Shown: positions 7,215 through 60,017 of the stretch, in pieces | Position numbering within the stretch: the first letter of the stretch is position 1 | Layout of the letters: the number at the start of each line of letters is the position of its first letter | DNA from: Deltaproteobacteria bacterium | GTDB lineage: Bacteria > Desulfobacterota > GWC2-55-46 > UBA9637 | Assembly (NCBI GenBank): GCA_030690165.1 | Contig: JAUYHF010000007.1 | Coordinates: forward strand, 195,420-258,792 | Reading direction: 5' to 3' | Length of the DNA: 63,373 bases | The notes under the pieces: model-generated | The model's database searches: none | What the model was told of the DNA's origin: nothing | What the model saw: the letters and a program-made list of their open reading frames with translations, nothing else | Program-made: the position numbers and the translations under genes

Positions 7215-7344
7215 ATTATAGTAAGCGCTAAAAATAAATAGACATCGTAGCTCAAGGCTTTAGCCTTGAAAGTCTTGAGAAACCTCAAACCTGAAGGTTT
7301 GAGCTACAGAAGAATGTCAACTTATTTATGCCGTTCACTATAGT
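7215..7344. repeat. MITE/BIME-like element with inverted ends and two REP-type hairpins
   Basis: The outer 31-nt ends (7215-7245 and 7314-7344) are imperfect inverted repeats sharing ATAGT and AAATAA...GACAT. Inside lie two hairpins, CAAGGCT/AGCCTTG and CTCAAACCT/AGGTTTGAG. Each begins with GTAG when read from its own outer side (7247 inward and 7307 inward). Two hairpins with outward GTAG feet match a BIME arrangement. The related pair at 57884-57931 shows that this is a dispersed family. The rest of spacer 7084-7505 holds the aspS terminator and a weak TTGACA-like promoter near 7395. Confidence 0.75.
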
Positions 7345-31300: not shown

Positions 31301-31414
31301 ACCCCATCCCCACCCTAACCCTCCCCTTGAAGGGGAGGGAACAAAAAAGTTTCCTCTCCCTCAGGGAGAGGACTGAAACATCCTTAATGGATGTTTCAGG
31401 TGAGGGTGGGGTTG
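31301..31414. repeat. Long palindromic repeat, copy 1, with a nested hairpin
   Basis: It begins ACCCCATCCCCACCCTAACC and ends GTGAGGGTGGGGT. Inner hairpins are CCTCCCCTT/AAGGGGAGG and CCTCTCCCT/AGGGAGAGG. The same element occurs at 53762-53852. This copy has an extra hairpin CTGAAACATCC/GGATGTTTCAG inserted near its right side. Confidence 0.88.
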
Positions 31415-31489
31415 GTTTTCATTCTCATTTGTGAGCCGCGGGCTTATGGGTGTTTTATAAATAGAGTATAACAGTGAAAGGATATGCGG

Positions 31490-36289: not shown

Positions 36290-37366
36290 ATGACAAACCG
36301 AATCTTATTGATTTTGCGGATTATTGTTCTATCAGTTATCGTCCCTTGTTTTATCGGAAGAGCCATCGCGCTTGCCGAATCCCAGCGTGAGCAACTGAGC
36401 CAGATGGTCGAGCAGTTGCAGAAGACGCCGGGCGACAACGCACTGCGCGAGAAAATTATTAGGCTCGCTCAGGAGTTGAAGCCCGCGCCTGCGTTGCCGG
36501 AGGAGGCGGAGCGCCATATGGCATATGGCACTGCGGCTTTTACGGCAGCAAAATCGCTTGCTGACTATAAGGAATCAGTCAAAGAATTCGAGCAGGCTAT
36601 ACTCGCCGCGCCGTGGTATGGCGACGCCTATTTAAACCTCGGTGTGGCTCAGGACAAGGCGGAGAATTATGAGGCGGCGTTACGCAGCCTCAAACTCGCT
36701 CTACTGGCTTTACCGGATGACAAGCAGATCAAGGGGCTGCTTTACCAGGTCGAATATCGGAATAAAAAGGCGCAGGCAACACCCAAACCCGGCGAGAGTT
36801 TCCGTGACTGCACCGATTGTCCCGAGATGGTCATTATCCCGCCGGGCAGCCTTGCGATGGGCAAGACCGAAGTCACGCAAGGGCAATGGCGCGCGGTGAT
36901 GGGCAATAACCCCAGCAGTTTCAAAAACTGCGGCGACAACTGTCCGGTGGAGAACGTGAGCTGGAACGATATCAAAGACTTCATCCAGAAGCTCAACGCC
37001 AAGACCGGCAAACAATACCGCCTGCCGAGTGAAGCAGAATGGGAATACGCCTGCCGTGCTGGAGGACAACAGGAGTACTGCGGCAGTAATAATCTTGATG
37101 CCGTCGCCTGGTATGAAGGCAACAGCGGTGGTAGCACCCACCCTGTGGCTGGAAAACAGCCCAATGCCTTTGGCTTGTACGATATGAGCGGCAATGTCTG
37201 GGAATGGGTAGAAGACTGTTACAGCGGAGATTGCGTGAATCGGGTGATTCGCGGCGGTTCCTGGTACGGCAAAACTGCGCTCCTGCTGGCGTCTTACCGC
37301 CTTTGGTTCGAACCGACGCACAAATTCTTCAACGACGGTTTTCGCATGGCGCTTCCCGTCAAGTAG
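36290..37366 (+). CDS. Exported TPR plus SUMF1 (formylglycine-enzyme-like) domain protein
   Basis: The start at 36290 has AAAGGAGG before it and opens a signal peptide ending near GRAIALAES. Residues 60-165 form TPR-like helices (AYLNLGVAQDKAENYEAALRSLKLAL). Residues 170-358 are a SUMF1/FGE-sulfatase domain: PEMVIIPPGSLAMGKTEVTQGQWRAVMG, YRLPSEAEWEYACRAGG, NAFGLYDMSGNVWEWVEDC and the final DGFRMAL. True formylglycine-generating enzymes have a Cys in GFRCA; here it is Met, so that activity is unlikely. The codon use is clearly GC-richer than the neighbours, a sign of transfer. Confidence 0.85.
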   Translation: MTNRILLILRIIVLSVIVPCFIGRAIALAESQREQLSQMVEQLQKTPGDNALREKIIRLAQELKPAPALPEEAERHMAYGTAAFTAAKSLADYKESVKEFEQAILAAPWYGDAYLNLGVAQDKAENYEAALRSLKLALLALPDDKQIKGLLYQVEYRNKKAQATPKPGESFRDCTDCPEMVIIPPGSLAMGKTEVTQGQWRAVMGNNPSSFKNCGDNCPVENVSWNDIKDFIQKLNAKTGKQYRLPSEAEWEYACRAGGQQEYCGSNNLDAVAWYEGNSGGSTHPVAGKQPNAFGLYDMSGNVWEWVEDCYSGDCVNRVIRGGSWYGKTALLLASYRLWFEPTHKFFNDGFRMALPVK

Positions 37367-44942: not shown

Positions 44943-44956
44943 TCTTTATAAAAACA

Positions 44957-45021
44957 TTGAAAATTGCAAAATGAAAAATGCAAATTTATAAGATTTAAAA
45001 TTTGAAATCTGCAATTTTCAA
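44957..45021. repeat. AT-rich word-type inverted repeat between the tRNA genes
   Basis: TTGAAAATTGCA (44957-44968) pairs with TGCAATTTTCAA (45010-45021), with further TGCAAATTT/AAATTTGAA complementarity between. A similar word set fills 57395-57458. Confidence 0.82.
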
Positions 45022-45040
45022 TTTGCACTTATCACAAGTC

Positions 45041-51760: not shown

Positions 51761-51781
51761 TTATTATCTCCTCCTTATGAT

Positions 51782-51852
51782 AAGGTCAAGGTTGAGGATG
51801 AGGTTGAGAAAAAAATAAATCTTAATCTTAACCTTGACCTTAACCTCAACCT
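51782..51852. repeat. Word-type inverted repeat between cysH and sat
   Basis: The left arm is AAGGTCAAGGTTGAGG and GAGGTTGAG; the right arm is CTTAACCTTGACC and TTAACCTCAACC. It fills the spacer. Confidence 0.82.
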
Positions 51853-52569
51853 TTATTTATGTATTCCACATTCCTTTTTTTCATCTTCTTTGTGAAACCA
51901 TCTCCACCTGCCAGAGCGGGGCGGCTCGCCTTTAACCAAGGGTGTTGAGCATATTATACAGCCGATAGAATCATAATCTTTGTCAAAGAGCTTATTATAC
52001 GGCAGATTGTTTTCTTTGATATACTGCCATATATCTTCCATACTCCAGTCAGCAAGTGGATTTAGTTTTAGAATCTTCCTTCCATCTTCTTCAATAATCT
52101 CAGCCTTTGAGACAGTTTTTCTGTAATTAGATTGGTCTCTCCTTAAACCTGTTATCCAGACATCAAGGGTTTTTAATGCGCGTCTGTTAGGCTCAACCTT
52201 TCTTATAAAACAGCAATATTCCTGCTTTGCCTTATCCATAAAAAACAGATATTCGCCGAATTTCTTTATCATGTTCTCTAATGCGCCCTCTTCCGGATAA
52301 AACTTCTCAATAGTCAGGCCATACCTCTTTTCCGCAGCAGATATTGCCTCATAAGTCTCCGGATGCAGACGAAGGGTGTCAATGGTGAAAACTCTAAACT
52401 TTTTTAAATGCCTGCTTGCAAGGTCTGTTATTACAGCGCCTGTAAGCTGCAAGCTTGTGCCTATGGCGCATTTTTCCCTGAAGTTTTCAAATGCCCATTT
52501 GATAAGTTCTTCTGCGGACATTTTGTTTAATTTATCAAGGGTCTCTTTTGTAATATCTTCAATCTTCAT
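51853..52569 (-). CDS. cysH: Assimilatory APS (adenylyl-sulfate) reductase
   Basis: It reduces activated sulfate to sulfite with thioredoxin. The 238-residue protein has the PAPS-reductase fold (KCAIGTSLQLTGAVITDL, VFTIDTLRLHPETYE, WITGLRRDQSNYRKT). The cysteines YCCFIRKVEP and YDSIGCIICSTP form the CC...CxxC set that holds a [4Fe-4S] cluster and marks APS rather than PAPS as substrate. The C-terminal catalytic Cys is in KKECGIHK. This agrees with the sat gene next to it. Confidence 0.92.
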   Translation of the reverse strand: MKIEDITKETLDKLNKMSAEELIKWAFENFREKCAIGTSLQLTGAVITDLASRHLKKFRVFTIDTLRLHPETYEAISAAEKRYGLTIEKFYPEEGALENMIKKFGEYLFFMDKAKQEYCCFIRKVEPNRRALKTLDVWITGLRRDQSNYRKTVSKAEIIEEDGRKILKLNPLADWSMEDIWQYIKENNLPYNKLFDKDYDSIGCIICSTPLVKGEPPRSGRWRWFHKEDEKKECGIHK

Positions 52570-53761: not shown

Positions 53762-53852
53762 ACCCCATCCCCACCCTAACCCTCCCCTTGAAGGGGAGGG
53801 AATAAAATAGTCTCCTCTCCCTCAGGGAGAGGATTAAGGTGAGGGTGGGGTT
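53762..53852. repeat. Long palindromic repeat, copy 2
   Basis: The same element as 31301-31414 (ACCCCATCCCCACCCTAACC to GTGAGGGTGGGGT) without the nested hairpin. Confidence 0.88.
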
Positions 53853-53857
53853 GATTT

Positions 53858-57883: not shown

Positions 57884-57931
57884 CTCAAACCTAAAGGTTT
57901 GAGTTACAGTAACTCAAGGCTTTAGCCTTGA
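57884..57931. repeat. BIME-like hairpin pair between cysM and the JAMM gene
   Basis: CTCAAACCT/AGGTTTGAG and CTCAAGGCT/AGCCTTGA hairpins joined by TTACAGTAA. The words are the same as at 7247-7307, but the GTAA-type feet face inward. Confidence 0.85.
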
Positions 57932-57936
57932 TTTAT

Positions 57937-58890
57937 TCAGTCCCACAACCGCGTCGAAAGGTACCTGTCTCCACCGTCAGGGAATAATACCACTATAACG
58001 GATTTATCTAACTTCTTCGCCACTTCAAGGGCGCCCCACATTGCCGCTCCGGAAGACTGGCCGACAAAAAGCCCTTCTTCAATGGCAAGTCTCTTTGCCA
58101 TATCGTATGACTCCTCAGTGGGCGCAGGCACTTTATCGTCAAGCTCATTTTCGTGATATATACCTGGAACAATTGATGTAGCCATATGCTTAAGACCTTC
58201 AAGACCATGGAGTGGTGTGGCAGGTTCCACTGCTATCACCTTTATATCAGGATTAAATTCCTTCAATCTCCTGCCGGCGCCCATAATAGTACCGCTTGTC
58301 CCGATACTTGCCACAAAATGGGTAATCTTGCCATCGGTCTGCTTTATTATCTCCGGGCCTGTTGTATCATAATGCGCCTGAGGGTTCGATGGATTGTTAT
58401 ATTGGTCAAGTTTGCAGTATTTATCAGGATTATCCACATAAAGCTTCCAAGCAAGCCTTATAGCGCCATCAGAACCTTCAAGAGGATTTGAAAACACGAC
58501 CTTTGCGCCAAATGCCTTGAGTATTTTTTTTCTTTCCTCGCTCACATTTGCAGGCACAACCAACTCAACGCCATAACCCTTTACAGCGCCAATCCAAGCA
58601 TACGCAATGCCGGTATTCCCGGATGTGGAATCAAGAATTATCTTATCTTTGGTAAGCCTGCCGCTCTTTTCCGCATCCTCTATCATCCTCTTTGCCGCCC
58701 TGTCTTTCACAGAACCGCCAGGATTATAGTTCTCAAGTTTTGCATAAACCTCCACCGACATGGGAAGCTGTTTGGTAATTCTATTTATCTTAATGAGCGG
58801 GGTGTTGCCAACCATGTCAACAATAGACTGCTTTGCCAAACTCAAATCCCATCTAATCTGCGGTAAATCCTGAACAATATGCCTGCTCAT
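57937..58890 (-). CDS. cysM: Cysteine synthase (CysM-like, PLP-dependent)
   Basis: It makes cysteine from an activated serine and sulfide or a thiocarboxylated carrier. The 317-residue beta-family PLP enzyme has VDMVGNTPLIKINRI, the PLP lysine in NPGGSVKDRAAKRMI, STSGNTGIAYAWIGA, GTSGTIMGAGRRLKEFNP and VVLFPDGGDRYLSTRLW. The ending DGGDRYLST is like CysK and CysM alike. The ThiF and Mec neighbours favour the carrier-dependent O-phosphoserine type. It is the first gene of the operon and has a promoter with a palindromic operator. Confidence 0.88.
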   Translation of the reverse strand: MSRHIVQDLPQIRWDLSLAKQSIVDMVGNTPLIKINRITKQLPMSVEVYAKLENYNPGGSVKDRAAKRMIEDAEKSGRLTKDKIILDSTSGNTGIAYAWIGAVKGYGVELVVPANVSEERKKILKAFGAKVVFSNPLEGSDGAIRLAWKLYVDNPDKYCKLDQYNNPSNPQAHYDTTGPEIIKQTDGKITHFVASIGTSGTIMGAGRRLKEFNPDIKVIAVEPATPLHGLEGLKHMATSIVPGIYHENELDDKVPAPTEESYDMAKRLAIEEGLFVGQSSGAAMWGALEVAKKLDKSVIVVLFPDGGDRYLSTRLWD

Positions 58891-58938
58891 ATATTTATCT
58901 CTCCAAGAGTTATCTTAAAAGTTGAGTCTTTTACTCTT

Positions 58939-58964
58939 GTATAATACTTTAGTATATTTGTCAA
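58939..58964 (-). promoter_or_regulatory. cysM operon promoter with ATACT-AA-AGTAT operator
   Basis: On the minus strand TTGACA (58959-58964) is followed by the perfect palindrome ATACTAAAGTAT (58944-58955) and a TATTATAC -10-like stretch. The inverted repeat between -35 and -10 looks like an Rrf2-type (CymR/IscR-like) site. The regulator identity is inference. Confidence 0.55.
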
Positions 58965-59004
58965 GTTAAAATCCCTTACCAAAAATAGACTTTGATTTTT
59001 GGGG

Positions 59005-59127
59005 AAACCTGCAAGTTGCCTGCCAAACGAGGCAGCGGGCAATTTTTACGACGAGCCGTATGTTCACCAATACGGTGAGGAGTAAAAATTGTCCGATAAC
59101 GAAGTATGACAGGCAAATCGCAGGTTT
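59005..59127. repeat. Long imperfect palindrome of about 120 bp
   Basis: Nested arms: AAACCTGC/GCAGGTTT, TTGCCTGCCA/TGACAGGCAA, GGGCAATTTTTAC/GTAAAAATTGTCC, and a central CCGTAT/ATACGG. It could form one long hairpin. Confidence 0.88.
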
Positions 59128-59128
59128 G

Positions 59129-59159
59129 TAAAATAGCGAGGTTTTTAATCGCTATTTTA
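59129..59159. terminator. Hairpin next to the ispH stop codon
   Basis: TAAAATAGCGA (59129-59139) pairs perfectly with TCGCTATTTTA (59149-59159). It lies 7 bp after the ispH stop and has no T run beyond the stem. Confidence 0.5.
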
Positions 59160-59165
59160 CGGCCA

Positions 59166-60017
59166 TTACCTCTTTGCCTGTTCACATATCTGACTTACAG
59201 CCTCTATCACTTTTTCTATTATCCAGTTGGGTGTGGATGCGCCTGCTGTTATGCCGACCTTTTTTGCGCCATTAAAGTGTATCTGATTTAATTCCCCGGC
59301 AACCTCTATATGATAGGTTTTTGGCTGGATCTTCCTGCAAATATCTGCAAGCCGCTTGGTATTGGCGCTGTTCTTTCCGCCCACAACAATCATGCAGTCC
59401 ACTTGCGCTGCAAGTTTTGTGGATTCATCCTGCCTGACAGATGTGGCATTGCATATTGTATTGAATATCTTTATCTCAGACGCCCTTGCAACACAGAACG
59501 CAACTATGGCTTGAAGATTCTGGATTGACTGTGTTGTCTGCGCAACTATACCTATCTTTTTTCTCCTCGGCATCCCCATTAGCTCATCCACGCTTCCTGC
59601 TGCTATTATATCCTTTCCGCCGTAACTCAAAATCCCTTTGACCTCAGGATGCTCCTTATCACCAACAACAACTATTGAATAACCTTCTTTTGTTAGAAGT
59701 TCCACATACTCATGGGTCTTTTTAACAAACGGACAGGTTGCGTCAACTATCTTAAGCCCTTTTCCTTTTACAATCTCCATCTCCTGCAATGTAACGCCGT
59801 GGGAGCGGATTATGATTGCGCCGCTGTCTACATCCTCAACGGTGTTGACAGCAGATATACCCTTCCTCTTCAATTCCTCTACTACCTGAGGATTGTGGAT
59901 TATCGGCCCCAGGGTGTGGATACACCCCTTGTCGTCCATAGTGCACTCCTCTGCCATGTTTATGGCCCTTTTTACGCCGAAGCAGAAACCTGCATTTTTA
60001 GCGACAAGTATTTCCAT
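59166..60017 (-). CDS. ispH: 4-hydroxy-3-methylbut-2-enyl diphosphate reductase
   Basis: IspH is the last enzyme of the MEP pathway and makes IPP and DMAPP. The 283-residue iron-sulfur protein has the three cluster cysteines in NAGFCFGVKRA, DATCPFVKKTH and FNTICNATSVRQDE, plus TLGPIIHNPQVV, RSHGV, GDKEHPEVKG and ITAGASTPNWIIEKV. It is not fused to ribosomal protein S1. It closes the aroA-cmk-ispH operon (2-bp gap to cmk). Confidence 0.97.
   Translation of the reverse strand: MEILVAKNAGFCFGVKRAINMAEECTMDDKGCIHTLGPIIHNPQVVEELKRKGISAVNTVEDVDSGAIIIRSHGVTLQEMEIVKGKGLKIVDATCPFVKKTHEYVELLTKEGYSIVVVGDKEHPEVKGILSYGGKDIIAAGSVDELMGMPRRKKIGIVAQTTQSIQNLQAIVAFCVARASEIKIFNTICNATSVRQDESTKLAAQVDCMIVVGGKNSANTKRLADICRKIQPKTYHIEVAGELNQIHFNGAKKVGITAGASTPNWIIEKVIEAVSQICEQAKR

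Follow-up and report, generated by a model that had tools for sequence, protein, structure and literature searches.

Bacterial MITEs are usually regarded as little more than transposon ends. Correia/NEMIS, ERIC, and BOX are small, non-autonomous elements with terminal inverted repeats (TIRs), target duplications, and stable RNA folds in transcripts. In Geobacter metallireducens, 24 "predicted short RNA elements" (Gmet_R1005 and others) were presented in 2009 (PMC2700814), papers on G. bemidjiensis and Pelobacter carbinolicus also speak of multicopy intergenic sequences (PMC2996986, PMC3543383), and 250 motifs have been filed as mobile/repeat sequence candidates (MRSC; PMC11109978). Among the papers listed for palindromes or MITEs in Geobacter or Deltaproteobacteria, taken from the openly accessible literature, we found no title or abstract opening that describes the element analyzed here or a conserved RNA module carried by MITEs. 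This element is a non-autonomous DNA transposon (MITE), with dispersed copies, TIRs, and target duplications, and selection probably acts on its 123-nt hairpin module in folded form, in all likelihood as RNA.

The element between the cysteine synthase and ispH genes

The window, that is, the whole stretch of 63,373 nucleotides analyzed, carries a palindrome at 59005-59127. The nested arm pairs noticed there beside ispH by an earlier reading of the sequence alone are present, and they form the middle of a 185-bp element (58978-59162), the limits of which were set by aligning the six copies in its own genome with their flanks. Three hairpins follow one another in the element, one at the left end (LE), a bulged one of 123 nt in the middle (MID), and one at the right end (RE), all assigned to the plus strand. 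LE (58978-59004), which is the left TIR, was identified from the six-copy alignment and forms a hairpin in the RNA fold; this third hairpin was absent from the sequence-only reading. Its family form is CCCAAAAATAGAC.TTGATTTTTGGGG, the window copy starting with ACC. MID (59005-59127), as defined by arm pairing, fold, covariation, and loop conservation, has four stems (1-8/116-123, 12-21/103-112, 32-45/78-91, and 51-57/66-72 in MID numbering) and three internal loops. RE (59128-59162; GTAAAATAGCGA..TCGCTATTTTACGG), the right TIR, shows 12 of 12 pairs and also occurs in relatives' copies with another middle or none. A second perfect hairpin had been described here, and it does exist (59128-59139 / 59149-59160), with arms of 12 bp and not 11, and it abuts the first one directly, the supposed 1-bp gap being absent. 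The element is bordered by a decayed target-site duplication, CCCTT on the left (58973-58977) and CCATT on the right (59163-59167), which are identical at four of five positions; the last two bases of the right one lie inside the ispH stop codon (read on the minus strand).

Both flanking genes, a cysteine synthase gene of the cysK/cysM type (57937-58890; NCBIfam cysKM above the cut-off) and ispH (59166-60017; NCBIfam TIGR00216 above the cut-off), are on the minus strand, and the window copy is antisense to both. No ORF of 80 aa or more was found over 58978-59162. The RNA fold of 58980-59180 has a predicted energy of -81.2 kcal/mol, versus -46.8 +/- 3.8 in 200 dinucleotide shuffles, none of which was as stable (z -8.95); folded as DNA, the 123-nt hairpin gives z -5.8. 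Six sigma-70 promoter-like sites were detected in 58930-59222, versus 1.5 expected, and a promoter may be supplied by the element. The best of these sites (10/12) spans MID into RE (59106-59134, plus strand). No terminator-like sites were found in 58800-59300.

The window contains other repeats. A second hairpin repeat is present twice, in opposite order, at 57885-57931 and 7247-7307 (TCAAACCTAAAGGTTTGAGTTAC / GTAACTCAAGGCTTTAGCCTTGA and near copies), and looks like another dispersed palindrome family. The inverted-repeat pairs at 31304-31415 and 53766-53853 have common arms (CATCCCCACCCTAACC / GGTGAGGGTGGGGTTG) with different spacing, and at 44956-45022 and 51781-51853 there are further closely spaced inverted repeats, whose arms measure 25-32 nt.

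Copies and transposition

The genome search for copies that the sequence-only reading had proposed yielded six in the element's own genome (E up to 7e-41), one of them lacking the right hairpin. Searches at the DNA level gave matches in at least 14 of 59 genomes, own included, and with them in all ten other genomes of the order, all numbers of copies and hits from this and the other genome searches being lower bounds (here with up to 13 candidates scored per genome). When named genomes were scanned with a pattern, 47 of the 59 records bore the title "Deltaproteobacteria bacterium", many of them from groundwater judging by their titles. Twelve pattern matches outside the group (Bacteroidales, Anaerotignum, and others) gave no match with the covariance model R1 described below and were discarded. 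No match to the element was found in phages and plasmids (blastn).

The terminal inverted repeats are seen at one locus (L085), where LE CCCAAAAATAGCGATT stands against the reverse complement of RE, CCGTAAAATAGCGATT; they are shorter and imperfect in the window copy. In relatives, LE and RE occur around other middles, around none, or alone, and the shortest form consists of 22 bp (CCCAAAAATAGCGATTTTACGG) with GTTGA on either side, i.e., its own 5-bp duplication. Among 71 family sites fitting the end pattern and having distinct flanks, including four of the six own-genome copies, a perfect target duplication was found at 28 (5 bp) and 16 (6 bp), giving 44 sites with either; 500 runs of shuffled pairings gave on average 0.52 and 0.22 such sites, and never more than 3 and 4. 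The window copy is not one of the 71, since it departs from the search pattern at its first base; its own duplication matches at 4/5. The excess of perfect duplications over the shuffles identifies the element as a non-autonomous DNA transposon, and thus bears out one of the three possibilities named by the sequence-only reading (a structured RNA, a MITE, or a recombination site). No observation points to a recombination site. As to sites of the integron attC kind, the ends AAAC..GTTT would not suit the attC core, and the copies are dispersed.

At locus L040, which comes from another genome in this family, the sequence upstream of cysM carries the element elsewhere and in the opposite orientation, while a stretch resembling by eye the left side of the window's site has no element. 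This arrangement is as insertion predicts, although ispH was not found in L040, which is therefore not a clean empty site. At three loci of another genome (G008; L151, L167, and L170), 185-bp elements with perfect 5- or 6-bp duplications have the 3' half of MID replaced, and R1 matches none of them at E up to 1e-5. The replacement is one and the same inverted repeat (AGGGACAGGC..GCCTGTCCCT) in all three, the chimeric form having itself spread. Many LE..RE elements have another middle or none, elements with other or broken middles have thus also moved, and MID may be dispensable for movement. If transposition goes on after the loss of MID, something other than movement has to account for the conservation of MID elsewhere.

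The central hairpin, probably selected as a folded strand

Covariation among homologous copies, which the sequence-only reading had put forward as a check, was analyzed in 27 of the 41 distinct full-length copies, aligned by MAFFT without structure. The others were set aside: ten were near-identical, one carried a long insert, and in three an arm had been replaced. Over the 39 named pairs, 91.8% of the cells are standard pairs, and double changes occur in 16 pairs. The covariation score is 0.291, as compared with 0.116 in shuffled alignments and at most 0.073 in slid structures, and double-changed stem cells number 103 versus 36 in the shuffles. On four of the five measures, compensatory changes exceed every one of the 500 shuffles (the fifth being reached by 2 of the 500), and they exceed every slid version. 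In 52 copies, the frequency of the major base is 0.978 in loop 1 and 0.965 in loop 2, as against 0.820-0.941 in the stems, loop 3 (0.890) and the terminal loop (0.721) being no more conserved than the stems. The view that the four arm pairs reflect an evolved structure rather than a simple duplication is therefore supported, the stems covarying and two internal loops being conserved.

The two sides of loop 2 (59025-59028 and 59103-59107, plus strand) deserve a description of their own. In 42 of the 52 copies, columns 21-24 read AGAC and columns 99-103 AGTAT, the latter occurring in 44; on the 5' side of the window copy, the first G is replaced by A (AAAC), and the 3' side reads AGTAT. An A-GAC strand opposite AGUA-U is the pattern of the bulged-G (sarcin-ricin) motif, which loop 2 would putatively form. 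Since this motif is known from RNA, RNA is preferred to single-stranded DNA as the form in which MID would act.

Strand and mismatch counts were made on 72 matches (59 + 13), 69 of them distinct and 52 belonging to the main group, opposite-strand matches, site repeats, broken copies, and copies with long inserts being left out. The plus-strand stems contain 108 G.U, 19 A.C, and 88 other mismatches, counted as cells, which are not independent events; pair 51-72 gives 41 of the G.U, and without it the remainder is 67 versus 19 A.C. The plus strand folds better than its complement in 50/52, 9/9, 4/4, and 4/4 copies of four types, a difference in energy that may come partly from the loops rather than the pairs. 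Taken together, the covariation, the conserved loops, the excess of G.U over A.C, and the better fold of the plus strand point to selection on the plus strand as a single strand. The maintenance of this fold and its loops across many related bacteria suggests that MID acts as a folded strand, and probably as RNA.

A less probable explanation is that the element is a plain MITE, the arms of which are kept complementary by template switching in replication and not by selection, so that the covariation would be silent on function. In a long palindrome, each arm can be expected to correct the other, and the apparent dispensability of MID for movement and the presence of further nested palindromes in the tips and stems of some copies would fit in with this explanation. 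Arm correction would, however, erase unpaired internal loops, and no part is more conserved than loops 1 and 2; it also leaves the one-strand excess of G.U over A.C without a reason, and loop sequences recur between types that have quite different stems. The nested palindromes themselves were observed in the MID tip or stems at five loci (L061, L062, L086, L088, and L029), as if hairpins inserted into hairpins.

If selection does act on MID as a folded strand, the hairpin would be maintained in the plus sense, most likely as RNA within host transcripts, as the covariation, the loops, and the bias of G.U over A.C lead us to infer. It would probably bind a host factor via its purine-rich internal loops, and this binding might alter the processing or stability of the surrounding transcript, which could make intergenic insertions tolerated or even used. 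Among 44 hand-picked copies, examined with a crude ORF caller, 33 are not within a called ORF (minimum 90 aa), and both orientations occur; between co-directional genes, 18 copies are sense and 9 antisense, which is a weak bias.

The mobilizing enzyme and the neighboring genes

In the mechanism proposed, a transposase recognizing CCCAAAAATAG.. at one end and ..CTATTTTACGG at the other would move the 185-bp element in trans, duplicating a 5-6-bp target. No transposase gene of the Y1, IS1380, or IS1634 families having the ends of the element was found in these fragmented genomes. IS1634 elements make 5-6-bp duplications, and IS1380 elements have CC ends and make 4-5-bp duplications. The IS1634 family was detected in 3 of 62 genomes, never above the cut-off, and the IS1380 family in 3 of 62, once above the cut-off. 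One IS1380 gene (G009:C7) is followed downstream by CCCAAAAAATGCA (read on the minus strand), which is similar but not identical to CCCAAAAATAG, its left end being off the contig; IS1380 as the mobilizer is thus a weak lead and nothing firm. A mini-palindrome (L087, about 1980-2010) and an IS1380 end (L275, about 1430-1455) share CCAAAAAATGCA, a second TIR-like family that comes close to the LE end. The ORFs of 12 regions containing nearby pairs of copies in two genomes (G018 and G022), between which a transposase might have been located, look housekeeping-like by eye, and no transposase was seen by eye at two LE-only loci considered as ends of an autonomous element.

It is improbable, in our view, that the hairpin is instead the single-stranded DNA substrate of a Y1 transposase (IS200/IS605, RAYT, or TIRYT type), as in REP/REPIN systems. 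The hairpins are long and their copies many, and Y1 genes were present in 14 of 16 genomes tested (68 matches). Y1 transposition is not known to make target duplications, and the 5-6-bp duplications are clear here. MID was found near only 2 of the 30 Y1 loci examined among these 68 matches, on one side only in both cases. TIR-flanked Y1 transposases with families of TIR repeats have been described (PMC3733652), and the Y1 gene at one of these two loci (L235) resembles them; the GGTCGCTGTCCCTATTTAT repeats on both of its sides (1121-1149 and 2118-2147) are its own, and are unrelated to the element.

That the hairpin regulates ispH or cysM in cis as an RNA (attenuator or riboswitch), as its site between the two genes and against the ispH stop codon might lead one to think, is largely refuted by the copies at other loci with mixed orientations to their neighbors and by the antisense position of the window copy, and we hold this reading to be very improbable. 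Rfam gave no match in 58700-59400 at E up to 5, and in ten relatives' loci one match, below the gathering score and outside the hairpin.

Reach of the family and comparison with known systems

The R1 covariance model, built from the 27 copies, one of which is the window copy, scores the window's MID at 133.6 bits on the plus strand versus 57.7 on the minus strand. With up to 56 candidates scored per genome, R1 matches occur in at least 28 of the 63 class genomes (own included), and the genome richest in them has at least 49, both strands counted. More distant types have quite different stems, and keep loop strings such as GAGGC and AACGA and the tip CGTA. A second model, R2, was built from one distant type only; at E up to 1e-6, and with up to 12 candidates scored per genome, it matches in at least 95 of the 297 phylum genomes, and it gave no match in 12 genomes of other groups (up to 150 candidates), an empty result that shows little on its own. 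R2 gives no match to the window copy. An R1 match of 22.4 bits at 36479-36563, inside a coding frame, was taken as chance and marks the noise level of this model; R1 scores of 30-38 bits (AGGCTGC type) were therefore accepted only with a reverse test using R2. With a limit of E 0.1, R2 matched 21 times in 29 loci. Of these matches, 18 coincide with hairpins that R1 had detected, without a change of strand and at full model length (18.7-38.9 bits); two others come from a single copy of the R2 type, matched on both strands, and the last is a fragment. R2 thus recovers 18 of the 31 R1 hairpins at these loci and misses 13. The window type and the phylum-wide type are likely to be joined via a chain of intermediates in one superfamily.

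A few related hairpins seem to have other ends and 9-bp duplications. At R2-type loci, a perfect 9-bp repeat was found in a fixed window on both sides in 4 of 30 cases (shuffle mean 0.12, maximum 2, 200 runs) and a match of at least 8/9 in 6 of 30 (shuffle mean 0.54, maximum 3), the fixed window having been picked after the first four cases had been seen; an earlier open 9-mer test gave perfect repeats in 4 of 27 versus 4 of 162 shuffled, and no excess at 8/9. If these duplications are real, transposon ends of at least two kinds carry the module. In one genome (G030; L069-L078), several MID copies have in LE's place a small hairpin with the loop CGTCACG and varying pairing stems. We tentatively envisage, as a possibility rather than an expectation, a phylum-wide mobile family of structured RNAs in which the selected unit would be a hairpin of about 120 nt with conserved bulged-G and GA-rich internal loops, carried by different DNA transposon ends (here CCC..GGG, duplicating 5-6 bp, and elsewhere TGATCTCGTAAAAAG-like, duplicating 9 bp). 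The RNA would then act either on a protein of the host or on how the transposon itself spreads. If the fold and the loops are indeed kept throughout the phylum while stems and ends change, this would amount to a structured RNA travelling on transposons.

As compared with Correia/NEMIS, ERIC, and BOX, the present family has an interior module that is conserved beyond the ends, with conserved internal loops. REP/REPIN sequences (GTAG- and CGTC-tagged) are dispersed palindromes like those studied here, but they are described as being 20-40 bp long, with tetranucleotide tags and a Y1 partner for the GTAG kind (PMC3733652), as opposed to 185 bp with 5-6-bp duplications and no Y1 partner found in our case. 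Among the MRSC motifs, MRSC-65-2 likewise has a long covarying stem and dozens of copies per genome, and was judged to be selfish; it differs in its UYCCGG repeat, and the present family may itself be one of the 250 candidates (PMC11109978).

The G. metallireducens elements are likewise multicopy, intergenic, and palindromic; the main-text passages dealing with them make no mention of ends, duplications, or covariation (PMC2700814). Their central palindrome, GRCGTAGCGCTGCTACGCC, was found in 2 of 351 loci (L283 and L331), lying in L283 at the tip of an R2 hairpin (94.7 bits), and is absent from the window's copy (L001). The window copy, which R2 does not match, belongs to another type, and its type is joined to theirs only through R1 and R2. 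One type of the family was thus probably noticed earlier, without a function (PMC2700814). The module is multicopy in common environmental bacteria, and the published palindrome suggests that culturable Geobacter carry one type of it.
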